From NCBI GenBank assembly GCA_903813345.2, contig CAIIXF020000012.1, positions 28,718,684-28,782,683 of the forward strand: DNA of 64,000 nucleotides, written 5' to 3'. Every line of letters starts with the position of its first letter. Within the stretch, counting starts at the first letter, position 1. Both the position numbers and the translations under genes were made by a program. Under the pieces are notes generated by a model. That model did no database searches. It saw only the letters and a list, made by a program, of their open reading frames with translations, and was not told the origin of the DNA. Positions 458-32,440 of the stretch are shown here, piece after piece. This DNA is from Owenia fusiformis (Eukaryota > Annelida > Polychaeta > Sabellida > Oweniidae).

Positions 458-686
458 CTGCTTGGATATCAACAGTTGATAGCTTCAGGAGCAGACAGGC
501 GGCACTGAGTGCCTCTGAGACGAGACCATGTTGAGTGGATTGGCTACTGGCTTTGTCTACTGTCTTCAACAAAACAGGGAGAACGTCCATGGCTTGAATG
601 AGGCAGTCACCCTGGAATGCTGCATTCATGCACTGAATGTATGCCATTCTCACACCACTTGTGGATGACTTCAACCCAAGCCCAGT
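458..686 (-). CDS. GCN1: GCN1 exon 8 (last one in window)
   Basis: Acceptor TACTTTTAG, donor GTAAGT, 229 nt. Encodes TGLGLKSSTSGVRMAYIQCM through LKLSTVDIQA. No further exon is seen between 457 and the left edge. Confidence 0.94.
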
Positions 687-6142: not shown

Positions 6143-6688
6143 ATGGATGTATCCAAGCGATTAGAATCATTCAGAGAAGCTTGGAAGAATGAACTTAATG
6201 CCCCTAAACGAGGTTCATCTAGTGGTTGTCAATCAAATAGTGAATCCCATCCTAGTACAACGCAGAATAATGAAAAAGAAACTCAAAAACAAAATCATTT
6301 TGAAAATGAAAATCCAGAAAAAGCTAAAGAAAAATCAGGTAGTTTTGATCCAGGTAGCTGGTATGAACGCCATGTAAAGGAAGCTGAATTAAAGGAGAAT
6401 ACTATAGAACCTTTCCTTATAGCTGAAAAATTATTAAGTGGCCATTTAGCGGAGCATAGTATATCGAACACTCCTACATCAACGCACTCAGAGATTAAAC
6501 CGCATCGTAAAGTTTCCCATCATAAAGAATTAGATACATTGACTTCTAATTCAGATATTGTGCATCATAACAGACTTGAAAAAAATAAGACAGGGAGATC
6601 AAGCCCACTCGATTTTAAAAGTAAACGAAGAAAATTAGATGGACAGACAGAAGAGGGAAATCTCGTTGATACATTAATTGCTGATTTG
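6143..6688 (+). CDS. FBXW8: FBXW8 exon 1 (N-terminal region)
   Basis: Residues 1-182, ending on a codon boundary at GNLVDTLIADL before donor GTAGGT. Human FBXW8 has EQLVDQLIRDL at the same place. Polar, Ser/Glu/Lys-rich and longer than the human N-terminus. An ATG 54 nt upstream (6089) is in frame and cannot be excluded as the start. Confidence 0.9.
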
Positions 6689-9600
6689 GTAGGTGTGAAT
6701 TACTGGTATAATGATACCGTGAGTTTGCTTGGTGGTATCATAGCTGAGGCAAGGGGCTAAATGTTAAAAATGAACTTATTGGAATGATCAGCTCCTCCGA
6801 TCACAGGGCTTCAAAATCCAGAATATCTTCTTTCTTTTTACTCCCTGCGATAAGCAGTTGGCATTTCCCCAATTAAGAACTTGCAATTTGATTCGCTGTT
6901 GCAACATTGTGAAAGAAATCATGTATACGTCATCGGCGCATAATTACATCATGTGATTCAGTTTTATCATGCGCTTCCAAATTGGTTATAGCAGAGGGAA
7001 AGAACAATGTGGATTCTTAAAAACTCACAGTGTGGTGAGATCTATTTTGTACCGATGTGAATGCTATGCGAGAAATATTTGGTCACTAGAAACTCAATGA
7101 TACAAAACGAGATGACCATGACTGTACAGTATATTAAAATAATGCCATTGTTTGTGATGTTCGTTTTTATTATTTTCTGTTGTAGGATGAAATCAATGAA
7201 ATTCCATTCTTTGACATCCAGATTCCTAGAGAAGTTGCAGTTTCTATGTTTAAATACTTGGAACCCAAAGACCTCTGCAGATGTGCTCAGGTAAGAGTGT
7301 GCAGATTTGCTTGGATAACAATAGAGATATAGATATGCTCAGGTAGAATTGTAGATGTGCTTAGGTAAGGATGTTGATTTGCTCAGTTAAGAATATAGAT
7401 GTGCTTAGGGAAGAGTAAAGATGTGCTCAGGTAAGAATGTAGGTGTGCTCAGGCTAGAATAAAGATGTGCTCAGTTAAGAGTTTGCAGATGTGCTTGGAT
7501 AACAATATAGATATTTATGTGCTTAGGTAATAATGTAGATGTGCTCATGTAAGAATGTAGATGTGCTCAGTTAAGAATGTAGATGTGCTCAGGTAAGAAT
7601 GTAGATGTGCTCAGGTAAGGATGTAGATGTGCTCAGGTAAGAATGTAGATATGCTCAGGTAAGAATGTAGATGTGCTCAGGATAGAATGTTGATGTGCTC
7701 AGGTAAGAATGTAGATGTGCTCAGGTAAGAATGTAGATATGCTCAGGTAAGAATGTAGATGTGCTCAGGATAGAATGTTGATGTGCTCAGGTAAGAATGT
7801 AGATGTGCTCAGGTAAGAATGTTGATGTGCTCAGGTAAGAATGTAGATGTGCTCAGGTAAGAATGTAGATGTGCTCAGGTAAGAATGTAGATATGCTCAG
7901 GTAAGAATGTAGATGTGCTCAGGATAGAATGTTGATGTGCTCAGGTAAGAATGTAGATGTGCTCAGGTAAGAATGTAGATGTGCTCAGGTAAGAATGTAG
8001 ATGTGCTCAGGTAAGAATGTAGATGCACTCAAATGATAATATAGATGTGCTCAGGAAAGAATGTAGATGCACTCAAATGATAATATAGATGTGCTCAGGA
8101 AAGAATGTAGATGCACTCAAATGATAATATAGATGTGCTCAGGAAAGAATGTAGATGCACTCAAATGATAATATAGATGTGCTCAGGAAAGAATGTAGAT
8201 GCACTCAAATGATAATCATAATATAGATGTGCTCAGGAAAGAATGTAAATGCACTCAAATGATAATATAGATGTGCTCAGGAAAGAATGTAGATGCACTC
8301 AAATGATAATATAGATGTGCTCAGGAAAGAATGTAGATGCACTCAAATGATAATATAGATGTGCTCAGGAAAGAATGTAGATGCACTCAAATGATAATAT
8401 AGATGTGCTCAGGTAAGAATGTAGATGCACTCAAATGATAATATAGATATGCTCAGGAAAGAATGTAGATGCACTCAAATGATAATATAGATGTGCTCAG
8501 GTAAGAATGAAGATGTGCTCTGGTAAGAATGTAGATGTGCTCAGGTAAGAATGTAGATGTGCTCAGGTAATAATGTAGATGTGCTCAGGTAAAAATGAAG
8601 ATGTGCTCTGGTAATAATGTAGATGTGCTCAGGTAAGAATGAAGATGTACTCAAGTAAGAGTGCAGATGTGCTTGGGTAAGAATGTAGATGTGCTCAGGT
8701 AATAATGTAGATGTGCTCAGGTAAGAATGAAGATGTACTCAGGTAATAATGTAGATATGCTCAGGTAAGAATGAAGATGTACTCAGGTAAGAATGTAGAT
8801 GTGCTCAGGTAAGAATGTAGATGTGCTCAGGTAAGAATGTAGATGTGCACAGGTTAGAATGTAGATGTACTCAGGTAAGAATGTAGATGTGCTCAGGTAA
8901 GAATGTAGATGTGCTCAGGTAAGAATGTAGATGTGCACAGGTTAGAATGAATATGTACTTATATTTTAGCTTCAGATTTATATTTCAAAGATTGTCAGAG
9001 ATTGGAATTTGATTAATATAAAGATGGCAGGCTTATTAGTCATTATCTTAAAAAAGGATCAAATCATCTTGCCATTGTCAGATCTCAAACTTTATTTATT
9101 TTGAAATGTTTAGATGTTTTAGATAAACCGGTCAACACTGATTAATCATTAGTTAGCCCTAGATATGGTTAAGGTAGCTTCCCACTCAATAGAAGTTTTC
9201 ATCATGCATATCTGTCGAGCTTCTCAATATGTAATATGTGTGAATGTCCTATTGTACTTTCTAGGTGAGTAAAGCATGGCAGAGTTTGGCGGAGGATGAG
9301 CTTTTATGGTGCACACTTAGCCACAGGGCCGGCTACGATTTACACTTAGATACAGTTGCAGAGAATGGCTGGAAACAACGATTCAAGGATAATTTGGCTA
9401 CAGCTAAAAATCTGCAAAATAATTGGAGGGTACGTATGGCATTGGATATTTACATTTTGTGGGATTTTGTGTCTACTTTGACGCGCCATTTCAATTCCAG
9501 TGTTAGAAAAGTCAAAGTCTAGAGCTAATAAACTATAGGATTACTGTTTTTCTGTTTCTAGCAGTCATTTTTTGCTTGTCATCTCAATTCCAGAAAAATC

Positions 9601-12600
9601 ACTCATTAGGTTTACTAATTTTACTCATAAGGTTTACTACCCCCAGAGTGAGGGGATTTCTCATCACCCCAGAAATGACCTTGAAAACTAGAGTGAGGAG
9701 ATAATCTGTTACAAAATTTTTCACTAAAATTGCTCTAATTTGGACAATTTTCATCCAATTTACACAAAAATGTCTTCAAATTATTACTGTAGATTGGGTT
9801 AATTTGGCGCTACTTAATTTGGCGATTTTGCCATATTTGGCATATTGGCGGTAATTTAATTTGGCGGATATGCAATTAGAAAAAAAAATTAAATGCAATT
9901 TAACTTACGCGCTGTTTGTGAATTACCATGCAAATGGTTTGGCTATGTTAATTTTTTCTTTTGAGGACCACTGGCGATATTCACTACGTTTGTACATTTT
10001 TGTGAGATCATCCTTTACATTTTGGTTGGTTGGTTGCACCTTGATTGATGCTGCTACTATATTGCGCTTTTCCCTGAGTATCAATGAGTGACTGACCAAT
10101 TCTTAGCCAATTTATAAGAGACATTTTTTCATATTTTTGGAAAAACTAAACCTAAAGTAACCTAAATACACTGGACGAAATACCCTAGATAATTCCCGGG
10201 GATTCATTCTAAATTTTGGCGAATATTTATATTGGCGAATTTTTCAATATCGCCAAATTCGCCAAATTAAAGCGGGCGCCAAATTAACCCAATCTACAGT
10301 ATGTAGAAATGATCTTACACTAAAAAATGCTCTAAATCAAATTTGAATAATTCTTATCCAATTTACAGAAAATACATTTTAAAATGTTTAGAAATGATCT
10401 CTGCTGACTAATTTCACCAACTTGGTGAAAAATCCTCTGGTTTCAAACCAATTTAAGAGCCTGGGACTCAAGAGGTTAAAATTGACTCATTCTACACGTT
10501 CTAATAATTTCTTCTTTCATGGGGTCCCCCTTCATGTTACGTAAAACAATGTGTGATTTAATCATTTTTATTAGCTAAATTAAATGGATAGCAATTACAG
10601 TTTAAGGTAATAACAAGCACAGTTACAGGACGGTAATTGTTCCACCACTTAAAATGTGACAAATAAACATTTTCTTAATTATTGGTTACAAAATACTAAA
10701 TATGTAACTAATGAAATTAATTCCACCATCCACCTGCATGATCAAGTCAGTATACAGTGAAACCTGTAAAGTGGAACACTTCTGTAAGTGGAACACTTTT
10801 GTAAGTGGAACACTTTTGTAAGTGGAACACTTCTGTAAGTGGAACACTTCTGTAAGTGGAACACTTCTGTAAGTGAAACACTTCTGTAAGTGGAATGCTT
10901 CTGTAAGTGGAACTCCTCTGTAAGTGGAACACTACTGTAAGTGGAACATGTCTGTAAGTGGAACATGTCTGTAAATGGAAACACCTCTTTGAGTGAAACT
11001 TCTGTGTAAGAGGAACACTTTTCAGAGTTGCATTACCAATTGACTTAATGTTCAATAAACCTCTGAAACACCTCCTAATCTTCCAAGTGGAACACCTTTT
11101 AGAGATACCAAAGGTGTGCCACGTACAAAGATTTTGCTGTACTTCACTGGTGATCCACTCGATTACGCTGGTTACCAAAACGAACCGTTTTGGTAACAAA
11201 ATGTCGGAACGTCGAAGGCACGATTTTTCTTTTTTCCTTATTTCACGCGTTGTAGGCAGAATCCCTACGACGTTTTTTCTCACAACGTGCAGCAGTATCA
11301 TATGTTTTAGAAAATGTACATGTTTGCGAAAAATAGCTCAGAGGACAACAGAACCGTCGATTTACTTCCTCACTTAAGTTACATAAACGGTTTTTCGAAA
11401 AACAGTTAAGATCTGCACTTTTAACCGAAACCGTTTATGTAACTTAAGTGAGGAAGTAAATCGACGATTCTGTTGTCTTCTGAACTATTTGTTCGCAAAT
11501 ATGTACAATTTCTTAAACATATGATACTGATACACGTTTGTGTTAGAACATGTCGTGGTAATTCTGCCTACAACGTGTAAAATAAGGAAACGAGAAAATC
11601 GTACCTTCCGGATCTTCCGACATTTTGTTACCAAAACGAACCGTTTTGGTAACCAGCGTAATCGAGTGGATCACCAGTGTACTTGTTGCTGTATTGTGTC
11701 ATAAGTAATTAATTGGAAATAGAATTGACTGTTTTTAATTTTCAGGAAAGAATAGGAGAATATAGCCCATTGCAGTTCATTAAGGGTGGAGTGTTGTGTA
11801 GCGCCCACTCCCATGGGTCCCAAGTTGTAGCTGGGTGAGTTAACTTTGGTACCTGCCATGCTGTTGGTTCAATTATTTTGCTATAGCTTCATGTGTTTTC
11901 AGCATGCTTTACCAGCAGGCTGTATCATTTGGTTCTATCAAAAATTTTGAAACTGCCATTTTTTGTCTGTCGATTTGACCAATCAGGACGACATGTCTTC
12001 TCTTCTTCTTGAAATCCAACTTAGTTTTATATCTCGTTTAAGTATTTGGAGACAAAAATTGCTCATATTCATTAATGAAATCATTAAAACAAAATCTGAT
12101 ATTTTTGCATTTTTGGAAAGGTGTCTGATTAAATTAGTTAAATAAAATATAAAAATGCATTTAGTTTCAATTCAGATTTGATGCCTTATAAGGACTTCAA
12201 TTTTTGCCCCTGACCCCCCCCCCCCCCCCCAACCCTCCTGGTGATGGACTCGTACTCCTGTAGCTTGACATTCTTTCTTTCATTTTTTCAGTTATACAAG
12301 TGGGCATGTAAAATACTGGGACCTGTCTAACAACGATGAGTGTATATTTCAACCGTCAAATACCTCACTTGTCATCGACCCCAATGTAGAGCAAGGAACT
12401 TTGGGTAATATTGTTACAAAGACGCACGTTAATTCACAACTGACGTCAGCTGGTTATTCTCTAGGTAATAATTATATAATTTTTTGACCATTTTAGAATC
12501 AGGTGAGAATTTAACTTCAAATTATTTCAAAATCTTTCGCCTTCGTTGTCATAAACCCCAATGTAGAGCAAGGAACTTTGTGTAATGTCGTCACAAAAAC

Positions 12601-15600
12601 ACACGTTATAGTTAACAATTGACATCAGCTGGTTATTGTTTAGGTAAGTATATAATTTTCAAATTAGTGAGAATATTACTTAAAAATAATATTTGATGTG
12701 ATAATGAATGTGAAATGCACGTCTTCAAAGCAATTATTTCAAAACCCATACCAACGTTTCTCTTAAAATCTTAACTTATGTTGAGATATCTGATGAAATA
12801 TATTCACACCCACAATCTATGACAGTACTGTTTGGTACTATTTTTATGACACTATCTGTTCAAAACTGTAAAATTTGGTACCATATGGAACCGTAGACTC
12901 AAAAGGTACCATATGGTACCATGAACACTTATGACATGGTACTTGAATGGTACGGTACCATACTCTTAATGTACTGTCCAAGTAAGGTCTTATAGGTGTT
13001 CACAGTACCATATGCATTTTTCTCAAAAGACAAACCATAAGGAACTGTCATGTAAAATACATGTAGGATTTTGGATTCATGATTTAGTTAAGGGCATAAT
13101 AGATGACTGTACCTTGGTTTGTATTTTGAGAAAAATGCATTGCGATAGCTACGCCCCCTTTGTCTTTATCCATCCTTTCTCAAATGGCAGATAGATGGAG
13201 CTCTGGCATAGCAGAATGAGAAAAATGCATCTCTTTAAATGTATGACTACTACTTCAGGCCTGATAAGTGATTAATTATATTATTTTTTAATGATATTTT
13301 TGACCAAAATATGGCTTTGAACGTATAACCTAACAATTACCTTGTTGGAATTGTATATTCTTATGCCCCTGGCCCTATATAGTATTTTTAATTGTTGTTT
13401 TTTTCCGTTTATCTTGCATGATTATCACCAGAAACTAATAATCTCTATAATTATTACCTAGTTGGGATTTTATAATTTGATGCCCCGTACATAGCAGTAT
13501 TTATAATCGAGTTGTTTTTAGTTCACCTTGCATAATTATCACCAGACACTATTCATTCCGATCGTGACAATTCTGCAAATATCGTTCATAAGTTTCCTGT
13601 CATCAAGTCTGAGCAATATGGACATCATGATTTGGTGCCTCTATGGCTTATGTTATAATTATCCCATCGAATGAAGTTCGGAGGGATATAGGGAACGCCT
13701 CCGTCCATCCGTCCGTACGTACGTCCGTCCGTCCGTCCGGGCAATAACTCAAATACCGTTGGACCGATTTTGTTCATATTTTGTACACATATACCCTATG
13801 GGGGTAGAAGTTTTGCTCGAAAGCCGATTTTCAAAATGGTCACTCATTTCAAAATGGCGGCCATTTTAGTGACGATTTTACAGTAATTTAGGTGCAATAT
13901 GTAAAACTGTAATAGCAATATGTTTTAAATGTAAAAGATTATAAAGGACATTAATAATGCTACAAATGTAGATATTAAAGAAGCACATGGCAGCCATCTT
14001 GAAAAATGGCGGCCTTTACTCGTCATTTTACAATTTTGGCTGTAACTCAAAAAATAGTGGAGCGATTTTGTTCATATTTGGTATGTGAATACTATAAGCA
14101 TTGCACACTGTCTAAAGACACTTTTGGTAGAAGGCGACCATTTTGAAAAATGGCCGCCATTTAAAAAAATGGCCGCCATTTAAAAAAATGGCCGCCATTT
14201 AAAAAAATGGCCGCCATTTTAACGCATTTTACTATAACTCGAAAAGTAGTGGAGCGATTTTGTTCATATTTGGTATGTGAATACTATAAGCATGGCACAC
14301 TGTCTATTTCTAATGACGCTTTTGGTAGAAGGTGGCCATTTTGAAAAATGGCCGCCATTTTAACGTATTTTACTATAACTCGAAAAGTAGTGTAGCGATT
14401 TTGTTCATATTTGACATGTGAATACTTTAAGCCTGGCACATTGTCTAATAAAACTTTGGGGAGTAGTCGGCCATTTTGAAAAATGGCCACCATTTTTATG
14501 TGTGTTATTTTACAAGTACGTGTGCGATTTTTCAAAAATTTAGAGGTGGCTAATTAAAAGCATATTATTTCTTCTGATGACAACTTGGCTAGTGAGCAAC
14601 CATTTTGAAAAATGGTGGCCTTTCTGGTGTGTTGTTTTATGATATTTGCGCTTCGTTTGTAAAAATGCCAGCCATTTCTGTTCGATAGGATTCGCTACGC
14701 TTTGGCGTTGCCGTTGTTCTGGTTTTAATTGGGCCATTTTTAGTTTTAGTTTATCTTGCGTAATATAAGATTTTGATGATTACGATTTGCAAATTTTCAT
14801 CCATGGAAATTAATAGACTCACCAAAAAAATATTTAATATTGACTATAATCAACCTAATGGATGGTGTTCAGATATAAAATCAGTTTCAATGAGTGATGA
14901 ATGATCATTGTAACCAGAAACAATATGTTAATATCAGCATTGTTAAGAGAAAACTAAAGTTAAAATTACAAGAAAAATTACATATAGACATTGAATCACA
15001 ACCCAAATTGAGGACTTACCTAACTTTTAAACATGACTGTCCAATAGAAAAATACTTACTTATATCATCATTGACAAGGGGTGAACGCTCTTTAATAGCT
15101 CAGTTAAGAACTGGTATACTTCCATTAGCAATAGAAAAGGGGAGATTTACCCAATCAAAAACCCCAGTAAACCAACGACAGTGCCTTTGTAACTCAGATG
15201 ATATTGAAAATGAATCACATTTTCTTATGTCCCCACCACATAGTGTGGGGCCATATTGTCGGCCTAGGCGCGTCCGTCTGTCTGTCCGTCCGTCCCTCCG
15301 TCTGTCCGTACGTCCAAGAGTTTTCTCCAAAACCGCTACAGATGTCACCTTCAAATTTTCAGGGATAACTTATGAGTGCATACAGATGTGGATGAAAAAA
15401 ATTTAACTCGATACCTACTTCCTGTCGGCCATTTTGAAGTCAAATGCTAAAATCCTTGTCTGCAAACTTTAAGAAAAACGGCTTCACATTTGCTTTTAAA
15501 ACTTTAACATCTTGTTCAGCTCACTTCATTCTAGATCTGATTAGGTTTTGGACCTGTTAGCTCAGTCATGTCAGCCATTTTGAATGTCTTAAGAAAAGTT

Positions 15601-21600: not shown

Positions 21601-24600
21601 ATGATATATATAACTTATAACACTCATATACATCATCATGGGCAAGACCTGGTGGACGATTGTCTGTCCGTTGCAATCCTACACACTCCAGTGATTTATT
21701 ATATGTTTTTAACTTTCTAGAGGGGGGCCAATAATGCTATGTAGCCTCGGCCCCTCACAATCTATGTAAATAATTATGTTGAATTATATAGATAGAAATA
21801 ACAATAACCTAAAAAAAAAAACTTATAGGGAATAGAACAAATCTGCTAGTGAGGCCTGTTATACCTCTCTCCCGTCCCTCTCCCGTCCCTCCCTCTCTTC
21901 CCCTTCACTTACCCCTCCCCCTCTGCCTCCCTTTCTCCTTTCCTCTCTTTCTCCCTCCCCGTCCCCCTCTCCCTCCTTCACCTACCCCCTCCCACCCTTT
22001 CTCCATTCCTCGCTTTCCATGGCTTAATATATTAGTAGTGTACTCCTTTTAATGTACGAGTACATATATATTTTTTATCCGATGGATACTAAATATATAT
22101 GGGGATAATGACACAAGACAATTTTAGTATCATATATGATATAGAGGTTATTGTGTGGGAGGTTTTTGATACAGGGTATATCTGAGGGAAATACAAAATA
22201 TCAACACGAGGGACCGTAGGGACCCATATATATATCACCCGCTCACTTCAGGTATCAATTAAATTCCCACATGTTATCTACATATAACACTATTAGTATG
22301 GAATAAATTGTACATATGTATGTTGTATATATTACAGGGTGAGAATTTATGATTTACGCTGTAGCGAAAGTATAGTTTGCTTTACGGGACACCAGGGGTC
22401 TCTGAAAACAGTCGAGATGAGTGGATGGAAGATTATCTCAGGGGATAACAAGGGACAGATATGTCTGTGGGACCAGCGCATGCAAACTAAACTCTGGGAT
22501 CTAACCAACAGGTGAATATACATCATATCCAATGAATATGAAGGATGTTAATATTATTTTTACCTGTACCTAATAGAGGTTTCTCCTTTAGGAGATAATG
22601 GGATGTACTCCATATGACTGCTAGTTGTGGCAACCTAAATCAATCAACAGTAACATTTTAAAACAAATGAATAAACGCAAGGAGCACACGCGTCTCGAAC
22701 TCACAACCTCGTGGTTACGGCGCCCAATCGCCTAGCCTGAACGTGCCGGCGCTCAAGCCCTCTTGGCCAACTCGACAACCCCAAAAAAGATTGTTTTGTT
22801 AGTCGATCTGACTAAGAAATAAATGACATGAAAATATTTCTTTCTATAAATTTTGAATGAAATAGAAGAACAATTTAATCCTTTGAGAGGCATATACAAT
22901 TACTCAGATGCGAGTAGGTAGTTACCAGTTTCGCCACCAGGTGGCTGATTTGGGGGAATTAACATGGCAGGGTATCACAAAATCCCCTTAAACTTGAATA
23001 TGCATCAGTTTTAGTGGTTCACCTTTCATATTACCTTTATGTATCTGATAGTTATACAAATTAAAATATGTCCAGTAAAAGAAAATATTATCTGCCCAAC
23101 ACAAGAAAATATATTTCACTTTTTGTGGTTTTACAAGATGGGGTCTATGGGGAATCTCCCCGACATAGAAGTCACATTTTCAAAGAAAATTAAATTTTCA
23201 AAGTTGATAAACTCTTTTCAAAACCACATTCCTAAATGTAATTTTACATGTAGATTCCAAATATGACATCAGTTTGACTGAATTGTGAATTTTTAATGAC
23301 GTAAATCAAGATTATTTCTACTCGCATCTGGGATATTGCCTAGTTGCAAATACTGTAACTAGTTACCAGTTTCACCACCAGGTGACTAACTTGGGGAAGA
23401 CAGAAAAAATTTCCCTTCAACTTGAATAGTAAATTCTTAAGTTTGATCATAATAGCCTCTTAATAATGTAGATTTATTTTGTTCTGTTCAACAAAAGATA
23501 TTTCTCTTTTTACCTGACTTAGAAGTAACTTTTAAAATTCAAAGTTGAGGAACATCTTTGGATGTAATTTTGTTAGTAGATTTCAAATGTTTCTTTTATG
23601 AAATTATATATTCAGCAATAGATTTCAAATAGGCCTATGTTAAGATTTTGAATTTTAAATGATATGATGAAATGTAAGAATCTACGGATAAAGTGTCCAA
23701 TGTGAGAATAGACTATTTATGGAATATCTGTGGAGAAAACTGCCTATGACAAAAAATATATGTGGGAAATGTCCATGGGTGAAATGCCTATGTCAGAATA
23801 ACCTATGTGGGGAATGTCCATGGGTGAAATGCCTATGTCAGAATAATCTATGTGGGGGATGTCTATGGGGTGAAATGCCTATGTCAGAATAATCTATGTG
23901 AGGAATGTCCATGGGGTGAAATGCCTCTGTCAGAATAATCTATGTGGGGGATGTCTATGGGGTGAAATGCCTATGTCAGAATAATCTATGTGGGAAATGT
24001 CTATGGGGTGAAATGCTTATGTCAGAATAATCTATGTGGGGAATGTCTATGGGGTGAAATGCTTATGTCAGAATAATCTATGTGAGGAATGTCCATGGGG
24101 TGAAATGCCTCTGTCAGAATAATCTATGTGGGAAATGTCCATGGGTGAAATGCCTATGTCAGAATAATCTATGTGGGGGATGTCTATGGGGTGAAATGCC
24201 TATGTCAGAATAATCTATGTGAGGAATGTCCATGGGGTGAAATGCCTCTGTCAGAATAATCTATGTGGGGGATGTCTTTGGGGTGAAATGCCTATGTCAG
24301 AATAATCTATGTGGGGAATGTCTATGGGGTTAAATGTCTTTGCCAGAATAATCTATGTGGGGAATGTCCATGGGGTGAACTGCCTATGTCAGAATAATCT
24401 ATATGGGGAATGTCCATTGGGTGAAATGCCTATGTCAGAATAATCTATATGGGGAATGTCCATTGGGTGAAATGCCTTTGTCAGAATAATCTATATGGGG
24501 AATGTCCATTGGGTGAAATGCCTATGTCAGAATAATCTATGTTGGGAATGTCTATGGGGTGAAATGCCTATGTCAGAATAATCTATGTGGGGAACGTCCA

Positions 24601-27600
24601 TGGGGTGAAATGCCTATGTCAGAATAATCTATGTGAGGAATGTCCATGGGGTGAAATGCCTCTGTCAGAATAATCTATGTGGGGGATGTCTATGGGGTGA
24701 AATGCCTATGTCAGAATAATCTATGTGGGGAACGTCCATGGGGTGAAATGCTTATGTCAGAATAATCTATGTGGGGAACGTCCATGGGGTGAAATGCCTA
24801 TGTCAGAATAATCTATGTGAGGAATGTCCATGGGGTGAAATGCCTCTGTCAGAATAATCTATGTGGGGAATGTCCATGGGGTGAACTGCCTATGTAAGAA
24901 TAATCTATATGGGGAATGTCTATGGGGTGAAGTGCCTATGTCAGAATAATCTATGTGGGGAATGTCCATGGGGTGAAATGCCTATGTCAGAATAATCTAT
25001 GTGGGGAATGTCTATGGGATGAAATGCTTATGTCAGAATAATCTATGTGGGGAATGTCTATGGAATGAAAAGCCATGTTGCTAATTGGCTCAGTGTGAAT
25101 TTTAATAGTAAATTAATTTTACAAATCTTGCATTGACAGGTAAATTATAACAATTATCACCTGGATTCAGACTACATGAACATATAATGTCAGAATTATC
25201 AAGGGAATTGTTGCAATTATCTAAATATTAAATGGCTAATTGCCGTAATTTGCATCCTAAATAACCTTAAAATATGTTTAACTGTTAATAAAACATACAT
25301 ATGTAATATATTTAATATGAAACTTACGCAAACAATAAAATAGGAGACTAACCCTTTAATTGTCCATGTAATGGAGAAAGTAAATTATTTTGCCTTTCGA
25401 AATTGAAAAATTGAAAAAAGAGTTTTCATGTCACCACCAAAAAGTGGTGACATATTGTTATATGGTCTCCGTTTTATTTGACAGCGGTTCATGGTTGGTG
25501 GTTGGTCTTACAACTTCCAATAACTTAACTGTTAGGACTGACTTCAATTTTTTTCAAAATCATCTACAAGTTTTCAGAAGTTCCAATCTGACTTTTTATA
25601 TAAGATTTGACCTTTTCAAAGTCAAAAATAGTTAAAAGGTCAAAAAGGTATATTTTCAACTTGCTTCAAATTGACCAATTTTCTTTTATCTACAAGTTAT
25701 TAGAAGTTCAAATCTGACTTTAGATTTGAGATTTGACCTTCAATGACCTTCTCAAAGTCAAAATCATCTACAAGTTCTCATAAATTCAAATCTGACTTAT
25801 GATGGAACTCACAATTTTTTGAGCAACTAGGTGGTGACATTTAGTCATGTTAATGCCTAATGTTAAGACTTGACTTAATATGACTGCTTACTATATGAGG
25901 ACTTGTTATTCAATTCTCAGAAAAGAGTGTTTGCATTCAAGCATCATGAATTTAAAATATGACCAATTGTTTTTTAGTTTATCCTTTTTTCATCAATTAT
26001 TTCGTCATTTAAATCAATTTACATTATACATGTACAAAATAGCTTGCTCATTGACTTATGGTATAAATATGGTCAACTAAAGCAGTTTTTTTTACAATTA
26101 ACGCTTAAATACAAATGCATATAAAGAGAAAACATATTTACATTAGACATGCAATGAATAAAAAAAGAGTTTGTGTAAAAATAAAGAGAAAATTGGACAG
26201 CTGGTGTTCAGCAGTCAGCATTCGGCAGTTGGCATCTGTAACAAATGGCAGGTGGTAACATTTTGCATGTTAATGCCTTGTTTTTTGTAGATGTAGAGGA
26301 AGGAAGTTAGGGAGAATGACAAATCAACATTTTCATATTTAATTGTGGAGGGGAAGAGCACTGTTCATGCACAACAAAATTAACTACTGTACTTTGGCGG
26401 CCATTTTAATAAATACCATTAAACTGGATACCAATGTCAAAAATCACCTGACTTTTTATCGTACCTAATAAAGGTACGATATTGTCATCAGCTTGACGGG
26501 CGGGCGGCAGGCGGGCGGCGTCTCACTTTTCAGCTTGTCTACAGGTTTCCAGCCAAACCATTTGACAGATTCATCTGAAATTTTCAGGAATGTTTCTACG
26601 TATCAAAGTTAAGAACTGATTATTTTTTGGGCATTCTGGGTAAATTTTAAGGTGGCCATTTTGGATTTTCCGTCCTAAAATCTTCACTTTCAAGACTTGT
26701 CTACAGGTTTCCAGCCAAACCATTTGACGGATTCATCTGAAATTTTCAGGGATGTTTCTACGTATCAAAGTTAAGAACTGATTAGTTTTTTGGCATTCTG
26801 GGTAAAATTTAAGGTGGCCATTTTGCATTTTCCGTCCTAAAATCTTCACTTTCAAGACTTGTGTACAGGTTTCCAGCCAAACCATTTGGCGGATTCATTT
26901 GAAATTTACAGGGATGTTTCTACATATCAAAGTTAACAACTGATTAGTTTTTGGGCATTCTGGGTAAATTTTAAGGTGGCCATTTTGGATTTTCCGTCCT
27001 AAAATCTTCACTTTCAAGACTTGTCTACAGGTTTCCAGCCAAACCATTTGACGGATTCATCTAAAATTTTCAGGAATGTTTCTACGTATCAAAGTTAAGA
27101 ACTGATTATTTTTTGGGCATTCTGGGTAAATTTTAAGGTGGCCATTTTGGATTTTCCGTCCTAAAATCTTCACTTTCAAGACTTGTCTACAGGTTTCCAG
27201 CCAAACCATTTGACGGATTCATCTGAAATTTTCAGGAATGTTTCTTGTATCAAAGTTAAGAACTGAGTAGTTTTTGGGCATTCTGGGTAAATTTTAAGGT
27301 GGCCATTTTGGATTTTCCGTCCTAAAATCGTCACTTTCAAGACTTGTCTACAGGTTTCCAGCCAAACCATTTGACGGATTCATCTGAAATTTTCAGGGAT
27401 GTTTCTACGTATCAAAGTTAAGAACTGATTAGTTATTTGGCATTCTGGGTAAAATTTAAGGTGGCCATTTTGCATTTTCCGTCCTAAAATCTTCACTTTC
27501 AAGACTTGTGTACAGGTTTCCAGCCAAACCATTTGGCGGATTCATTTGAAATTTACAGGGATGTTTCTACATATCAAAGTTAACAACTGATTAGTTTTTG

Positions 27601-30600
27601 GGCATTCTGGGTAAATTTAAAGGTGGCCATTTTGGATTTTCCGTCCTAAAATCTTCACTTTCAAGACTTTTCTACAGGTTTCCAGCCAAACCATTTGACG
27701 GATTCATCTAAAATTTTCAGGAATGTTTCTACGTATCAAAGTTAAGAACTGCTTATTTTTTGGGCATTCTGGGTAAATTTTAAGGTGGCCATTTTGGATT
27801 TTCCGTCCTAAAATCTTCACTTTCAAGACTTGTCTACAGGTTTCCAGCCAAACCATTTGACGGATTCATCTGAAATTTTCAGGAATGTTTCTTGTATCAA
27901 AGTTAAGAACTGATTAGTTTTTGGGCATTCTGGGTAAATTTTAAGGTGGCCATTTTGGATTTTCCGTCCTAAAATCTTCACTTTCAAGACTTGTCTACAG
28001 GTTTCTAGCCAAACCATTTGACGGATTCATCTAAAATTTTCAGGGATGTTTCTACGTATCAAAGTTAAGAACTGATTAGTTTTTTGGCATTCTGGGTAAA
28101 ATTTAAGGTGGCCATTTTGGATTTTCCGTCCTAAAATCTTCACTTTGAAGACTTGTCTACAGGTTTCCAGCCAAACCATGTGACGGATTCATTTGAAATT
28201 TACAGGGATGTTTCTACATATCAAAGTTAACAACTGATTAGTTTTTGGGTATTCTGGGTTAATTTTAAGGTGGCCATTTTGGATTTTCCGTCCTAAAATC
28301 TTCACTTTCAAGACTTGTCTACAGGTTTCCAGCCAAACCATTTGATGGATTCATCTGAAATTTTCAGGGATGTTTCTACGTATTAAAGTGAAGAACTGAT
28401 TAGTTTTTGGGCATTCTGGGTAAATTTTAAGGTGGCCATTTTGGATTTTCCGTCCTAAATTCTTCACTGTCACACTGCTGTGTTTTAGGTACGATATTGT
28501 TCACGTCTGTGCCTTGTTTGTGATTATGAGTCAAAGAAAGCATTTTTGAGTTTCAAATTGACTTCTGTGGTAACTTGAAACCATCTTCTAATTTATTCCA
28601 CTTACCTTTTATTGTTTCTCCAAATATATTCTTTGAAAATCGGATTTTAAGGGTGTTAATCAGGGCAATTCTGTGTCATTTTAATCAAAAATCTTGTTGC
28701 TACCTAGAAACGAGCAATTGTGATCTTGTTGTTACCAAGGAACGAGCAACTGTGATGTCATGTCACACTCATGTGAATTCTAGAATCACATGGCAGCCAT
28801 TTTGGAAATTTCAAAAAAGTTCCCAATTAAAAAGGCAAAATGCTGTTTTCAAGTTGGAAACTATTGCAGAATCAACAAAAGGTTTGTGAAATAATTAGGA
28901 TAAGGTTTCAAAATTATGCACAGGACAATATATGACTACTAAATGCAGGCAGGGACTTTTAATTGCCAAAAAATTGAGTGACAAAAAGCATTGCTATCAA
29001 CCTTAGTACATTGCAATATTACAAGTCCACCAATTTAAGTAGCCCCAAAATGTTCAGAACAGCAAATCCCTCAAAATAAGTAGCGCCAAATTAAGTAGAA
29101 GTATAGTAAGTTTTTCAACAACTGTCACTATTTGGACACCAGCCCTTAACCAACAACAACATATAATCGAACATACGTAATTGCCCAGGAGGTTTAAAAC
29201 GTTCAGGGGAAGGTATTAAGTGTTTATTGCCAAATAATTAGACATTTATATGATCAATGCATAGGCAATTACCAGATGTAAAATGGGATGAGTGGCATGA
29301 CGACACATTTTGGGCCACAAAAACATCAGTTGCATAAACTGACCTGGGGAAACACCGTGGGGGGATTAAACGCACAGGGATGAGTCATCTAGCGGATGTA
29401 ACATTTTAGTGGAGAAATATCTTGTAATTAAGAAATTATTTGAAAATTTGCATCAGTAATGTAAAGTGACCAGGGGAAAGACTGGGGGGTTAAACGCACA
29501 GGGATGAGTCATCTAGCGGATTGAACATTTATGTGGAGAAATATCTTGTAATTTTTAATAAAGAAATTATTTGAAAATTTGCATCAGTAATGTAAAGTGA
29601 CCAGGGGAAAGACTGGGGGGTTAAACGCAAAGGGATGAGTCATCTAGCGGATGTAACATTTAAGTGGAGAAATATCTAGTAGTTTTTAATCAAGAAATTA
29701 TTTTAATAGAATTGGTATCGATATGGCGAACTGAGTTGAACACATGTTTCCATAAACCAGTCATCAAAAAATTCTGTAAATTTTACACATTGTCAAATTG
29801 ATTATCTTTTGAATGGCAACAATTTAATTTGAAAAATGCATGTATATCCTTTTCACTATATTATTTCAGAAAACACATCAGCCACTTCTTTTCTTCTCAG
29901 TATTATATGTTCAGAATGAAATGAAACATACCGGTATATCCAAACCTCATTGAAACAAAATGACATATACACAATGTGTTTAGGGCTCTCAATATTGTAA
30001 TTGTACTAAGGAAAGTTTGGTTCATTTAACAAAAGGTATCTTGTTAATGAAATAAAAGGTTTACTTTAATTTTGATCTATTTAATTTTTTGAATACTTTT
30101 GATTAAATGAACCAAACTTTTCTTTGTATAACTATAATATTGAGAGGTATGAGAAAATGCCGTATATGCTAATTTGTTCCAACAAGGTTCGGAAAGACAT
30201 TTTATTTCATTCTCAAGAATGGGTAGAAAGGAACAAAAAAAAATTGCACCAAAAAACAAAAATTGTTCACAAAAACAATAATACAGGTATAAAATATGTA
30301 TAAGTAATTTTTGCATTAAATTGTTGCAATCAGTGACCGTTACATAAAGGACAGTGTTATTTACATAATGTTTTCTCAACAATTGTTTTGAGAGAAAAAC
30401 AATGTTGATTTCAGTTCACCATATCGATACCAATCCTTTGTAATTGCAATCTTCTAGTATGTATCCACGTGAGTCTACGATTCTTATGCCCTTTTTGCCT
30501 ACTACCCTTTTTCTATCTAAATGGAATAAAATCAGCTGAATAAAATACTACAATTTGACACCATTTTTCAGTTTTATTTGAAAAATGTGTGAAATGGTGT

Positions 30601-31773
30601 CAAATTGTAGTATTTTATTCCATTTGGTTTAGTTTTGACTCACCTATTTCAATCTACTTAAAGAGAGAATCAGATCTATAAAAAAATTGTTTCAATTTTA
30701 GAATATTTTTGACTCATATCATTTCTTGTAATGTCTATCCCAAGTGCATACTTTAGGAAAACTAAAGATTTTTACTATTATAATGTATTATTTTCAGTTT
30801 TATTTGAAAAAAATGTATCAATGAATAGAAGTATATTTCTGTAAAATGGCGAGCCACATTATCTGATGAGGTTTTGTTCATGAATTCTGTGAACTTTCAT
30901 TCCCTTTATAAAAAAATATTTTGTTTGTGTTTTTCAGTCATCCTGTGGAGCATTGCAAATTTGATGAAAATTACCTAATAGCGGCCCATGTGCCTTTAAA
31001 TAAGCAACCTGAAGCTGATGATTTTGATAGCATTGTTCACAGAAGGTAAGCATTTGGACTATTATAATAAGCATTTGGACTATTATAATAAGCATTTGGA
31101 CTATTATAATAAGCATTTGGACTATTTTAATTAGCATTTGGACTATTATGATAAGCATTTGGACTATTATAATAAGCATTTAGACTATTGTAATAAGCAT
31201 TTGGACTATTGTGATAAGCATTTGGACTATTATAATAAGCATTTAGACTATTATAATAAGCATTTGGACTGTTTTAATAAGCATTTGGACTATTATAATA
31301 ACCATTTAGACTATTATAATAAGCATTTGGACTATTATGATAAGCATTTAGACTATTATAATAAGCATTTGGACTTTTATAATAATTATTTGGACTATTA
31401 TAATAAGCATTAACTATTATGAGTGTTTGGACTATTATTAGTATTTGGACTATTATAAGTATTTGGATTATTATAAGTATTTGGACTTGTACTATCATAA
31501 GCATTTGGACTATTATTAAAGCTTATTTGTCCAACTTAACTTCTGTATAGAGGGCACTACCAGTAATCAGCTTTACTGTTAACAAGAAATCACCTGTAAT
31601 TAAAGGTATTCAATATAAATGTTTTTACTTGCAGGGATAGAGGGTTAGTATTTGCCTATAACTTTAACATAGAGCAAGCCAGTGATGTGCCGTCTATTTG
31701 TACAGCAAAATATGACGTACCTGAGAGTTACAATTACAACATCAACCTTGTGACACCTTATGATGCATTATGA
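6143..31773 (+). CDS. FBXW8: FBXW8, F-box/WD40 substrate receptor of the CUL7 ligase (complete)
   Basis: FBXW8 links SKP1 to the CUL7-RBX1 ubiquitin ligase. Eleven GT-AG exons: 6143-6688, 7186-7290, 9265-9429, 11746-11834, 12292-12464, 19351-19550, 20281-20502, 20925-21049, 22338-22511, 30938-31045, 31635-31773. All phases agree, giving 2,046 nt and 681 residues (human ~598). Residues 1-182 are low-complexity and polar with a KSKRRK basic patch (~159-164); the F-box is ~187-235 (IPFFDIQIPREVAVSMFKYL); WD40 blades run from ~285 to the end, with GYTSGHVKYWDL, GNVDIWYNKEG, RRVRIYDLRC, GDNKGQICLWDQRM and the C-terminal INLVTPYDAL (human LALAFPYNHV). The start was chosen because MDVSKRLESFREAWKNEL aligns with human MDDYSLDEFRRRWQEEL. 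Large introns 5 and 9 are filled with repeats; several exon edges are tandemly amplified. Confidence 0.95.
7186..7290 (+). CDS. FBXW8: FBXW8 exon 2 (F-box)
   Basis: Acceptor TTCTGTTGTAG, donor GTAAGA; 35 codons, phase 0. Encodes DEINEIPFFDIQIPREVAVS and MFKYLEPKDLCRCAQ, the first half of the F-box. Its last 12 bases plus donor are the seed of the following minisatellite. Confidence 0.95.
7279..8955 (+). repeat. 22-bp minisatellite grown from the exon 2 donor
   Basis: About 75 copies of a ~22-bp unit whose core is GATGTGCTCAGGTAAGAATG. The unit equals the end of exon 2 (GATGTGCTCAG) plus its donor (GTAAG). In 8020-8500 the array switches to a 44-bp dimer in which one half reads GATGCACTCAAATGATAATA and the donor is changed to GGAAAG. 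On either side roughly 40 units keep CAG|GTAAG. Lies wholly in intron 2 apart from its first unit. Confidence 0.93.
9265..9429 (+). CDS. FBXW8: FBXW8 exon 3 (end of F-box)
   Basis: Acceptor ACTTTCTAG, donor GTACGT; 55 codons, phase 0. Encodes VSKAWQSLAEDELLWCTLSH through QNNWR (human VSKTWKVIAEDEVLWYRL). The exon opens with GTGAGT, itself a strong donor sequence. Confidence 0.95.
9785..10301. mobile_element. ~515-bp MITE with 24-bp perfect TIRs
   Basis: Termini beginning CTGTAGATTGGGTTAATTT at 9787 and its exact complement ending at 10299 are flanked by TA, the Tc1/mariner-type target. The interior is AT-rich with many 'AATTTGGCG' motifs. A short reading frame inside is not a gene. Fragments with the same 'GCGCCAAATTAAGTAG' wording lie at about 29030-29110. 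Confidence 0.8.
10752..11139. mobile_element. Tigger/pogo-like remnant with a 17-bp tandem array
   Basis: Starts TACAGTGAAACCTGTAAAG, a wording common to TIRs of pogo/Tigger-type elements, and then repeats a 17-bp unit (GTAAGTGGAACACTTCT) about 13 times to ~10985. The following stretch again contains AAGTGGAACACCTTTTAG in direct orientation. A second relative is at 21052. The 3' end is interrupted by the foldback element at 11145. Confidence 0.6.
11145..11679. mobile_element. 535-bp foldback element with TACTT target duplication
   Basis: The two halves (11145-11395 and 11432-11679) are near-perfect complements; termini CACTGGTGATCCACTCG and complement. The 5-bp TACTT is duplicated at 11140-11144 and 11680-11684. 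No coding capacity. The right end is 66 bp upstream of FBXW8 exon 4, close to where a branch point would lie. Confidence 0.88.
11746..11834 (+). CDS. FBXW8: FBXW8 exon 4 (first WD40 strand)
   Basis: Acceptor TTAATTTTCAG, donor GTGAGT, 89 nt. Encodes ERIGEYSPLQFIKGGVLCSA and HSHGSQVVAG; human has VLCDVHSHDGVVIAG. Confidence 0.92.
12292..12464 (+). CDS. FBXW8: FBXW8 exon 5 (WD40)
   Basis: Acceptor CATTTTTTCAG, donor GTAATA, 173 nt. Encodes YTSGHVKYWDLSNND through HVNSQLTSAGYSLG. A second donor, also GTAATA and in the same phase, lies 60 nt earlier at 12405; use of it would drop 20 residues in frame. Alignment to human favours the longer form. Confidence 0.88.
12545..12650 (+). pseudogene. Broken partial duplicate of the exon 5 3' end and donor
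   Basis: About 100 bp matching the last ~110 bp of exon 5, including CCCCAATGTAGAGCAAGG and GGTTATTGTTTAGGTAAG. It starts 178 bp downstream of the source and has lost the frame: an in-frame TGA follows the HV codons. No good acceptor precedes it, so it is probably not spliced in. Confidence 0.85.
12826..13230. repeat. GGTACC-rich stretch and a hairpin
   Basis: 12826-12985 repeats GGTACCATATGG-type words in both orientations. 13013-13041 and 13112-13141 are complementary arms (ATGCATTTTTCTCAAAA and complement), the outline of a small foldback element. No gene. Confidence 0.5.
13660..14756 (+). mobile_element. Hairpin-headed element with GTCC tract and 'GGCCGCCATTTT' repeats
   Basis: Head ATCCCATCGAATGAAGTTCG (13660-13679), then GGGATATAG, a CCGT/CCAT tetranucleotide tract (13703-13738), then ~165-bp imperfect repeats each containing 'TAACTCGAAAAGTAGTG', 'GATTTTGTTCATATTTG' and 'GAAAAATGGCCGCCATTTT'. 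Same family as the reversed copy at 4051-4747. Non-coding. Confidence 0.65.
14826..15234 (+). mobile_element. LINE 3' end: C-terminal part of a reverse-transcriptase ORF (left piece)
   Basis: Translates to fragments such as FNIDYNQPNGWCSDIK, then in another frame KLRTYLTFKHDCPIEKYLL, RSLIAQLRTGILPLAIEKGR and a Cys-rich QCLCNSDDIENESHFLM. This wording is typical of the C-terminus of invertebrate non-LTR retrotransposons, with a zinc-knuckle-like C-x-C...H. Frameshifted and 5'-truncated. It stops abruptly where the neighbouring element begins; the continuation is at 16664. Confidence 0.7.
15235..16663 (+). mobile_element. Element with 162-bp core repeats, inserted in the LINE
   Basis: Head palindrome CCCCACCACATAGTGTGGGG, then GCCATATTGTCGG, a (GTCC/GTCT)n tract at 15275-15312 (ACRG on the other strand), a unique stretch, and about 5.5 core repeats of 162-163 bp from ~15740. 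The core carries AGCCATTTTGGATTTTC and AAAATCTTGTCTGTAAAGTC. The layout recalls bivalve 'pearl' elements, regarded as non-autonomous Helentron relatives; this assignment is by resemblance only. Confidence 0.65.
16664..16975 (+). mobile_element. LINE 3' end (right piece with tail)
   Basis: Resumes with a translatable stretch (SSFKDIFENKKYIKCFGKYL, then QKLFDIRKAFYLKIK) typical of the extreme C-terminus. A 3' UTR with AAGCCCAGGTAGGGCTGGC and an (ATGA/ATAA) tail, GAATGAATCGATAAATAAAT, follows. Tail and wording resemble CR1/L2-like LINEs. Confidence 0.6.
17423..17820. mobile_element. 398-bp foldback element
   Basis: A near-complete palindrome: termini CGGTCCTAACTTCGACCG and complement, centred on GGTCCCCAGCTGTTAGAAGG and its complement at about 17606-17645. 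Arms are ~195 bp each with no loop to speak of. Short reading frames within it are fortuitous. Confidence 0.85.
18131..18863. mobile_element. ~730-bp foldback element, copy 1
   Basis: Termini CAAAGGTGTGGTATCCATAT and near complement at 18844-18863. Inner arms meet around 18480, with 'ACCTTTTATTTCATTAACAAG' near the centre. A second, 75-80% similar-looking copy lies at 29705-30440. Both are in FBXW8 introns. No coding capacity. Confidence 0.8.
19067..19350 (+). repeat. 21-bp minisatellite grown from the exon 6 acceptor
   Basis: About 13-14 copies of a 21-bp unit (core TTACTATTTTCAGGTAATGA). The last unit is the functional acceptor, CTATTTTTAG followed by exon bases GTAACG, so each unit carries a pyrimidine tract, CAG and then GTAA. 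Three units read TTTTTAG in place of TTTTCAG. Ends exactly at the exon boundary. Confidence 0.93.
19351..19550 (+). CDS. FBXW8: FBXW8 exon 6 (WD40)
   Basis: Acceptor CTATTTTTAG, donor GTACTT, 200 nt. Encodes NVDIWYNKEGSETTPVHTFN through MDMHFPDQ; human has GFLNIWDLRTGKYPVHRF. Directly abuts the 21-bp array. Confidence 0.93.
20281..20502 (+). CDS. FBXW8: FBXW8 exon 7 (WD40)
   Basis: Acceptor TGTTTTATTAG, donor GTGAGT; 74 codons, phase 0. Encodes IQHMNYTPTVPQQDFVTIAT through GVFQADNK. The weakest-conserved part compared with human, where this blade is also divergent. Confidence 0.9.
20538..20650. repeat. Hairpin in intron 7
   Basis: GGAAATATCCCAGAATTCAT (from ~20541) is complementary to ATGAATTCTGGGATATTCC (~20630-20648), with a partial extra copy of the arm at 20521. 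Probable MITE remnant. Confidence 0.5.
20925..21049 (+). CDS. FBXW8: FBXW8 exon 8 (WD40)
   Basis: Acceptor ATATTTCAG, donor GTATAG, 125 nt. Encodes CRLYCMRSGKETQTLNGSTG through MGSDDR. The donor is unusual: a repeat begins at its third base. Confidence 0.9.
21052..21200 (+). mobile_element. Tigger/pogo-like fragment at the exon 8 donor
   Basis: Begins TATAGTAAAACCTGTCTAAG right after donor bases GT, followed by GTGGAACACC and an internal inverted copy (GTGTTCCACTTGGGAGG). Relative of the remnant at 10752. The far end is uncertain (TTGTACAGTAAAAC at about 21180-21194). Confidence 0.6.
21718..22030. repeat. Hairpin head and a C/T-rich tract
   Basis: 21718-21762 is the hairpin GAGGGGGGCC...CGGCCCCTC seen also at 17350-17383. 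21850-22020 is almost pure pyrimidine (CCCTCTCCCGTCCCTCCC type). No gene. Confidence 0.6.
22338..22511 (+). CDS. FBXW8: FBXW8 exon 9 (WD40)
   Basis: Acceptor TATATTACAG, donor GTGAAT, 174 nt, phase 2 at both ends. Encodes VRIYDLRCSESIVCFTGHQG and ISGDNKGQICLWDQRM; human has RVRIHDLRSG and VSGGEEGLVSVWDYRM. Clear GH and WD signatures. Confidence 0.95.
22675..22795 (-). mobile_element. tRNA-derived SINE
   Basis: On the minus strand, GTTGTCGAGTTGGCCAAGAG (A-box-like) and GTTGTGAGTTCGAGACGC (B-box-like) are spaced as in a class II (Leu/Ser-like) tRNA with a long variable arm. The acceptor stem does not pair properly, so it is a SINE head rather than a tRNA gene. The body is short and AT-rich. 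Confidence 0.6.
22905..23330 (+). mobile_element. 426-bp element with CAGATGCGAGTAG termini, copy 1
   Basis: CAGATGCGAGTAG at 22905-22917 and its perfect complement at 23318-23330. A reverse-oriented copy lies at 56443-56854, sharing AGTTACCAGTTTCGCCACC and GATGGGGTCTATGGGGAATC. A diverged fragment begins again at 23361 (GTTACCAGTTTCACCACC). Non-coding. Confidence 0.8.
23755..25075 (+). repeat. 46-bp minisatellite in intron 9
   Basis: About 28 copies of a 46-bp unit which is itself a dimer of two ~23-bp halves (AATCTATGTGGGGAATGTC and TATGGGGTGAAATGCCTATG). Variant positions (T/C in TCTATGG or TCCATGG, A/T/C in CCTATG) recur in blocks, suggesting segmental duplication of several units at a time. 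Not derived from an FBXW8 exon. Confidence 0.92.
25429..25857 (+). mobile_element. Short hairpin-headed element (GTGGTGACAT class)
   Basis: Head TGTCACCACC-AAAAA-GTGGTGACA, then TATTGTTATATGG. The body has about three 'ATCTACAAGTTNTNAGAAGTTC' repeats with 'TGACCTT' words. The tail is GGTGGTGACATTTAGTCATG then TTAATGCCT. The same tail wording occurs at 26262-26281 and 20150-20160. Confidence 0.6.
26461..28519 (+). mobile_element. Element with twelve 162-bp core repeats
   Basis: Head GTACCTAATAAAGGTAC (hairpin), GATATTGTCATCAGC and a GCGG-rich tract. About twelve 162-bp core repeats follow (period measured at 26691, 26853, 27015, 27177, 27338), carrying GGTGGCCATTTTGGATTTTC. The tail is TTTTAGGTACGATATTGTTC and GTGCCTTG. 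A four-core higher-order unit of ~648 bp is duplicated (27176-27370 against 27823-28017). Its core is a diverged relative of the one at 15740-16663. Confidence 0.75.
29339..29720 (+). repeat. Three ~130-bp tandem repeats
   Basis: Three copies of a unit containing GGGATGAGTCATCTAGCGGA, starting at about 29339, 29468 and 29598. In intron 9 of FBXW8, abutting the next foldback element. Confidence 0.85.
29705..30440. mobile_element. ~730-bp foldback element, copy 2
   Basis: Termini ATTGGTATCGATATGGCGAA and near complement at 30413-30436. Same family as 18131-18863: both contain GAGAATGAAATAAAATGTC-like and ACCTTTTATTTCATTAAC words. A reading frame across the right arm is not a gene. Confidence 0.8.
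30539..30619. repeat. 28-bp perfect hairpin
   Basis: 30539-30566 and 30592-30619 are exact complements (core TACTACAATTTGACACCATT) with a 25-nt loop. Small MITE or snapback remnant in intron 9. Confidence 0.8.
30938..31045 (+). CDS. FBXW8: FBXW8 exon 10 (WD40)
   Basis: Acceptor GTTTTTCAG, donor GTAAGC, 108 nt. Encodes HPVEHCKFDENYLIAAHVPL and DDFDSIVHR; human has HPVQHISFSSHSLITANVPY and DLDSFTTHRR. Confidence 0.94.
31047..31520 (+). repeat. 21-bp minisatellite starting inside the exon 10 donor
   Basis: About 22 copies of TAAGCATTTGGACTATTATAA, beginning at the second base of the donor GTAAGC. Units vary (TAGACTATT, TTTAATAAGC) and decay towards the right end. Unlike the exon 2 and exon 6 arrays, the unit has no AG|GT, so only the first copy is a donor. 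Confidence 0.92.
31635..31773 (+). CDS. FBXW8: FBXW8 exon 11 (C-terminus and stop)
   Basis: Acceptor TTTTACTTGCAG, 139 nt to TGA at 31771-31773. Encodes DRGLVFAYNFNIEQASDVPS and YNYNINLVTPYDAL; human has HRGLIRAYEFAVDQ and YYDLALAFPYNHV. Confidence 0.95.
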
Positions 31774-32440
31774 TTTCATCTAAAATTACAACATTAAACT
31801 TGTGACACCTTGTGATGCATTGTGATTTCATCTACAATTACAACATCAAACTTGTGACACCTTGTGATGCATTGTGATTTCATCTACAATTACAACATCA
31901 AACTTGTGACACCTTGTGATGCATTGTGATTTCATCTACAATTACAACATCAAACTTGTGACACCTTGTGATGCATTGTGATTTCATCTACAATTACAAC
32001 ATCAAACTTGTGACACCTTGTGATGCATTGTGATTTCATCTACAATTACAACATCAAATTTGTGACACCTTGTGATGCATTGTGATTTCATCTATAATTA
32101 CAACATCAAACTTGTGACACCTTGTGATGCATTGTGATTTCATCTACAATTACAACATCGAACTTGTGACACCTTGTGATGCATTGTGATTTCATCTACA
32201 ATTACAACATCAAACTTGTGACACCTACACGATGCATTGTGATTTCATCTACAATTACAACATCAACATTGTGACACCTCACGATACATTATGATTTCAT
32301 CTACAATAACAACATCAACATTGTGATATCTTATGATGCATTGTGATTTCATCTACAATTACAACATCAACCTTGTGACACCTTATGATGAATTGTGATT
32401 TCAACTACAATTACAACATCAACCTTGTGATATAATACAT
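31722..32440 (+). repeat. 52-bp minisatellite copied from the end of the FBXW8 coding region
   Basis: About 14 copies of a 52-bp unit whose first copy is the last 16 codons and stop (ACAATTACAACATCAACC, then TTGTGACACCTTATGATGC). The central copies are almost identical to each other (TTGTGACACCTTGTGATGCA); the last three diverge. 52 is not a multiple of three, but each copy has its own TGA or TAA. Lies in the presumed 3' UTR. Confidence 0.93.

Follow-up and report, generated by a model that had tools for sequence, protein, structure and literature searches.

The FBXW8 gene of the annelid Owenia fusiformis carries three tandem arrays whose units contain exon sequence, located at the exon 2 donor, at the exon 6 acceptor and over the last 14 codons with the stop codon. 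Edge arrays of this kind are a real, recurrent and probably mostly neutral feature of the genome. We consider it likely that they are minisatellites derived from short tandem duplications that by chance spanned a functional boundary of a gene ("mirages"), near-neutral in effect and growing outward.

Arrays at the boundaries of FBXW8

The window, i.e. the whole stretch of 64,000 nucleotides that was analysed, contains FBXW8 in 11 coding exons (Table 1; the exon 11 coordinates used include one base beyond the stop). The closest solved structure to the gene product is the F-box/WD repeat-containing protein 8 (PDB 7z8b_F, E-value = 2.4e-86, query residues 170-679). The residues at the exon 2/3 junction (RCAQVSK) are the same in 7z8b_F, and the C-terminus aligns as far as the end of that chain. 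GCN1 (480-5590; Pfam GNC1_N, E-value = 5.9e-23) lies on the opposite strand, head-to-head with FBXW8, the two genes presumably being close together in human too; a search for GCN1 among solved structures gave no match. A cytochrome P450 exon is found at 62846-63415 on the minus strand (Pfam E-value = 4e-52).

Table 1. FBXW8 and the repeated segments at its exon boundaries; positions are those of the window.
Feature	Position	Strand	Basis or measure
FBXW8, 11 coding exons	6143..31773	+	uninterrupted 681-aa frame; PDB 7z8b_F match
Source copy: exon 2 end (to 7290) + donor	7279..7299	+	1/21 mismatch against array unit
Donor array, intron 2	7330..8956	+	22-bp unit, 73.3 copies (Tandem Repeats Finder)
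Exon 5 end + donor, source of single duplication	12369..12483	+	alignment to its copy
Diverged copy of exon 5 end + donor	12546..12659	+	98/112 identical
Acceptor array before exon 6	19063..19354	+	21-bp unit, 13.9 copies (Tandem Repeats Finder)
Array at exon 10 donor	31047..31516	+	21-bp unit, 22.9 copies (Tandem Repeats Finder)
Stop-codon array, exon 11	31729..32430	+	52-bp unit, 13.5 copies (Tandem Repeats Finder)

Eleven arrays jointly occupy 8,358 of the 26,298 bases of the gene span (about 32%). One of them has 2.2 copies and the others at least 2.8, and two share 30 bases; shorter and two-copy rows are left out of this set, and the exon 2 array is counted from its source copy at 7279. 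Two 162-bp arrays in separate introns (15752-16664 and 26523-28472) have GCCATTTTGGATTTTCCGTCCTAAAATC in common, and so seem to belong to a single dispersed repeat family rather than to derive from exons.

An earlier note on this DNA had described about 75 repeats of the end of exon 2 with its donor. The array is real, and the source of its unit is the last 12 bases of exon 2 plus the donor. A search of the 64 kb on both strands, allowing up to 4 mismatches, found no occurrence of the unit beyond the exon edge and the array. The motif CAGGTAAG is kept, however, in only 30 copies. In the middle of the array (8020-8500) the repeat is 44 bp long and made of two units, and most copies of either half have lost the donor GT, so that most of the decoy donors there would be dead. 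At exon 5, where the same note had seen an extra broken copy of the 3' end and donor, there is indeed one additional, diverged copy and no array. The roughly 13 repeats of the exon 6 acceptor with the first exon bases were likewise found, the final unit being the genuine acceptor with the first bases of the exon, which begins at 19351. The exon 6 unit is in frame, and the array is open along its whole length (open frame 19041-19676).

The remaining two boundaries had been described less accurately. An array of about the expected 22 copies does touch the exon 10 donor, but it begins inside the donor, at intron base 2, and its unit has no exon bases. Of the 21 bases just before it (31026-31046), 15 disagree with the unit, so this array adjoins the edge and has nothing copied from the exon. 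The array at the end of the gene, given as about 14 repeats of the last 16 codons with the stop, has nearly that copy number and comprises 14 codons: its first copy (31729-31780, 3/52 mismatches) carries the last 14 codons and the stop, and the remainder lies 3' of the stop. Of the five boundaries counted as seeding arrays, three thus have an array that contains exon sequence, one has a single duplication and one is only abutted by an array. That the exon edge supplies the array unit, as the earlier note proposed, is upheld by the recurrence of the pattern in other genes (below) and by the seeding ends themselves. The copying ran from exon to array, because the residues encoded at the seeding exon ends can be aligned with the solved FBXW8.

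Arrays in other genes

We sampled exons of the WD40, kinesin and HECT families, found exon by exon, and fetched loci around part of them. From 150, 144 and 81 matches, respectively, 144, 109 and 47 were kept, and 122 were usable in the fetched loci, L052 among them. Left out were tandem copies (five of the six WD40 rows dropped), a repeated transposon-like HECT match, the hits on contigs C197 and C281, and many hits with internal stops. Exon edges were placed with a generic splice-site matrix, i.e. predicted without RNA, and arrays of at least 2.5 copies were identified with a repeat finder; 24 edges scoring below 3 (three of them in arrays) and eight slots without a candidate site were dropped. 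Locus L052, chosen for its known array, was kept out of the rates and retained in the coverage profile.

Nine of the 205 sampled splice edges (4.4%, CI 2.0-8.2%) lie in arrays, comprising 4/97 acceptors and 5/108 donors. They are distributed over eight of 96 sampled loci, one kinesin locus having two. Exon bases are read in the repeated unit for eight of the nine array edges, the other (L054) being uncertain, with an ambiguous real donor. Two kinesin exons (L056 and L120), probably of one gene, have edge arrays with periods of 57 and 154 bp, separated by about 4 kb. At C2:23266359-23269174, partly within L052, a piece of a kinesin motor exon (profile 290-327) occurs in 18 listed copies at a spacing of 159 bp, which is an exon-scale form of the same phenomenon. 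Five tandem WD40 exon pieces are present at C7:38703569-38704128, with a spacing of 94 bp and one step absent.

The whole genome was also searched for three occurrences of CAGGTAAG within short gaps, yielding 171 matches, whereas its backwards control yielded 63. The permuted controls GGACTAAG and TGGACAAG gave 142 raw matches each (17 and 50 backwards); therefore the raw counts do not set the donor motif apart from its controls, and they speak against a donor excess. The control matches come mainly from a single 39-bp satellite family and a single large array. In terms of independent arrays, counted by eye among the matches listed up to contig C6, the controls have one family and four arrays and the donor motif has 12; over the extent of the matches listed for TGGACAAG, the donor motif has 11. 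With the satellite loci counted singly, the first control equals the donor motif, and neither permuted control enters any of the tests below. Among the matches listed, about a dozen loci, mostly on C2 but also on C6 and C11, have arrays of the 39-bp satellite-like family (GGACTAAGTATTTGTCATCC...). An interspersed element with a block of three CAGGTAAG was seen at 10 loci among the matches listed (e.g. C1:38277825).

Nine distinct donor-motif arrays were read, L021 and L035 among them, besides one of the interspersed family. One begins where an exon of XPNPEP3 ends (L014; solved relative, E-value = 2.7e-16) and another at a KIAA0895-like exon (L022; solved relative, E-value = 2.1e-7). A third probably starts at a dynein heavy chain exon (L025), the match being below the curated cut-off. 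A tRNA-synthetase-like exon of class II (F) ends at most about 55 bases from one further array. The arrays of L017 and L038 come after open frames, for both of which a family search gave no match, and that of L009 comes after a short open frame.

Preference for exon edges and chance within FBXW8

In collapsed coordinates, held to be a fair test of where duplication began, nine edge arrays were observed against 2.26 expected (203 edges, 103 loci). The enrichment over uniform seeding is 3.98 (bootstrap 1.8-7.1, P = 0.0006) and is present both in 3-kb loci (5 against 0.91 expected) and in small loci (4 against 1.19). This excess favours the explanation that exon edges are active hotspots, where R-loops, co-transcriptional breakage, or polymerase or fork stalling would seed duplications more often; the two kinesin edge arrays lying close together and the motif ratios given next point the same way. 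Corrected by single-copy frequency (donor, 13,493 against 11,845 backwards; acceptor-like, 40,358 against 24,214), the donor motif exceeds its backwards control 1.87-fold (17 against 8 arrays among the matches listed, C1-C9) and the acceptor-like motif 1.50-fold (20 against 8 among the matches listed, C1-C5). Neither test is significant, however (p = 0.10 and 0.22; Fisher combined 0.106); the donor count of 17 is without the interspersed family, and adding that family once changes p to 0.07.

Array coverage also argues against hotspots. With L052 included, it amounts to 4.2% inside the exon within 30 bases of the edge, 4.8% in the 30 intron bases next to the edge and 5.1-5.8% at 60-400 bases outside exons, a flat profile from 0 to 400 bp with no rise or fall beyond the edge. 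Within 100 bases of the edge, array ends number 3.43 per 10 kb on the exon side and 2.60 on the intron side, and the exon-side excess is clear only for arrays of at least four copies (6 against 1). Furthermore, longer-lived edge arrays, or generally more duplication in transcribed DNA, would yield an equal excess. Given the enrichment, the flat coverage and the non-significant motif tests together, a preference for edges is therefore suggested, not established, and active hotspots seem to us rather unlikely as the cause. The proposal of the earlier note that edges are over-represented relative to random is thus partly supported: the sample exceeds uniform seeding, the coverage shows no excess and both motif tests are non-significant. 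We offer tentatively, as a possibility we doubt, the broader statement that exon edges are genome-wide hotspots of tandem duplication, with about one in 23 splice sites carrying a boundary-seeded array, some four times the uniform rate, which would contribute to the lengthening of introns, to decoy splice sites and possibly, outside chordates, to new introns. If this were true, about 60% of ten-intron genes would bear at least one such array.

Whether five boundaries in one gene exceed chance, as had been claimed, depends on the null model. Our tests count the exon 2, exon 6 and exon 10 arrays (3/20 splice edges) and the stop. Random unconstrained placement of 11 arrays touches 3.2 splice edges on average. 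Under a seed model, with a unit-sized seed falling anywhere, 0.91 are expected (P = 0.05 for at least three; P = 0.009 for at least four with the stop), and placement with an exon overlap of at most 60 bases gives 0.73 expected (P = 0.024 for at least three). With exon 10 omitted, two splice edges are left and these probabilities become weaker. FBXW8 by itself proves little, because the gene was singled out after looking. At the sampled rate of 9/205 per edge, three or more of 20 edges would be in arrays with P = 0.055. The O. fusiformis assembly is described as 505.8 Mb in 12 chromosome-scale scaffolds (PMC9977687). With the 26,966 genes reported for the species and 20 edges each, roughly 1,480 genes would have at least three array edges. 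A special cause for the several array boundaries of FBXW8 is thus not supported, and the gene looks like an upper-tail yet ordinary example, such arrays being numerous in this genome.

Origin of the arrays and related systems

For the arrays as near-neutral mirages we envisage the following course. A duplication across an exon edge would be nearly neutral, because the outermost copy would remain a working splice site or stop, leaving the mRNA unchanged, whereas most other duplications extending into exons would be lost. The array would then expand by slippage or unequal exchange, lengthening the intron or the 3' UTR, and splicing would stay with the outermost site despite many near-identical decoys. 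The exon-side copies are intact and encode residues conserved in the solved FBXW8, in support of this course; array growth and neutrality are what we infer from a single assembly. Neutrality with uniform seeding nevertheless under-predicts the edge arrays of the sample (nine against 2.26). The idea of the earlier note that selection acts against damage everywhere except just outside exons is close to this explanation.

Intron gain, put forward for amphioxus globins from mirages (PMC3087553), would make the arrays intermediates or relics of a process in which tandem duplication of coding sequence bearing AG|GT created introns. The alignment of the exon 5 donor region with the exon 6 array unit was matched in only 0.3% of shuffles (P = 0.003), AG|GTAA occurs at both junctions, and exon 3 opens with GTGAGT directly after CAG. 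A birth of intron 5 by duplication was considered on the strength of this alignment and rejected as weak; the common splice consensus could alone explain the match, and there is much unrelated sequence in introns 2 and 5. We find intron gain improbable here. More improbable yet is selection for redundant splice sites as a means of buffering splicing or tuning isoforms: the exon 6 array is open in frame, and its upstream acceptors would add a repeated 7-aa unit, but AGGT in the exon 2 array is less conserved than the rest of the unit (0.84 against 0.92, in 35 units tiled of about 73), and reading on past an exon 2 array donor meets an in-frame stop. An artefact is barely credible, error-prone as the assembly of tandem arrays is, since the copies bear many different substitutions and like structures are found at separate loci on several contigs.

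The mirages of amphioxus are described as tandem duplications, resembling minisatellites, that extend across exon/intron boundaries at the 5' and the 3' ends of exons, in Adh3, the globins BflGb6 and BflGb9 and troponin C, with PGBD5 similar; they are said to vary in copy number and proposed to feed intron gain (PMC3087553, PMC3902484). According to the same account, Adh3 data and globin RT-PCR suggest that the arrays leave splicing undisturbed (PMC3087553). The units of the exon 2 donor and exon 6 acceptor arrays of FBXW8 similarly span an exon/intron boundary, which the exon 10 unit does not, and the exon-side copy is the real coding one, in an intact frame with conserved residues. Unlike in amphioxus, the host is an annelid, several arrays occur in one gene, with up to 73 copies and one at a stop codon, and their frequency could be estimated on an exon sample. 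We found no boundary mirages outside amphioxus in the open-licence literature, which does not prove their absence elsewhere. Human IFI6 (G1P3/6-16) also has a minisatellite at a donor, with many splice-site copies; it differs from the present case in being a single gene, whose multiple donor sites are used in the transcript. Internal tandem repeats reportedly occur at exon-intron boundaries of human duplicated genes. Tandem duplication across a boundary, with AG|GT sites duplicated, is described as able to generate intronic sequence (PMC2812944); in contrast to such intron gain, there is no sign here of an intron having been created. Earthworm metallothionein introns, those of another annelid, have minisatellite-sized tandem monomers, a unit crossing an exon edge not being stated in the part of the source available (PMC12783039).

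What is new here is a probable non-chordate case, a measured frequency and a version at a stop codon. A curiosity of a few amphioxus genes thereby becomes a measurable feature of an annelid genome. Should the sampled rate hold, that genome would offer thousands of natural experiments on the choice of splicing among near-identical sites, and a direct test of the fragility of exon ends and of arrays turning into introns.
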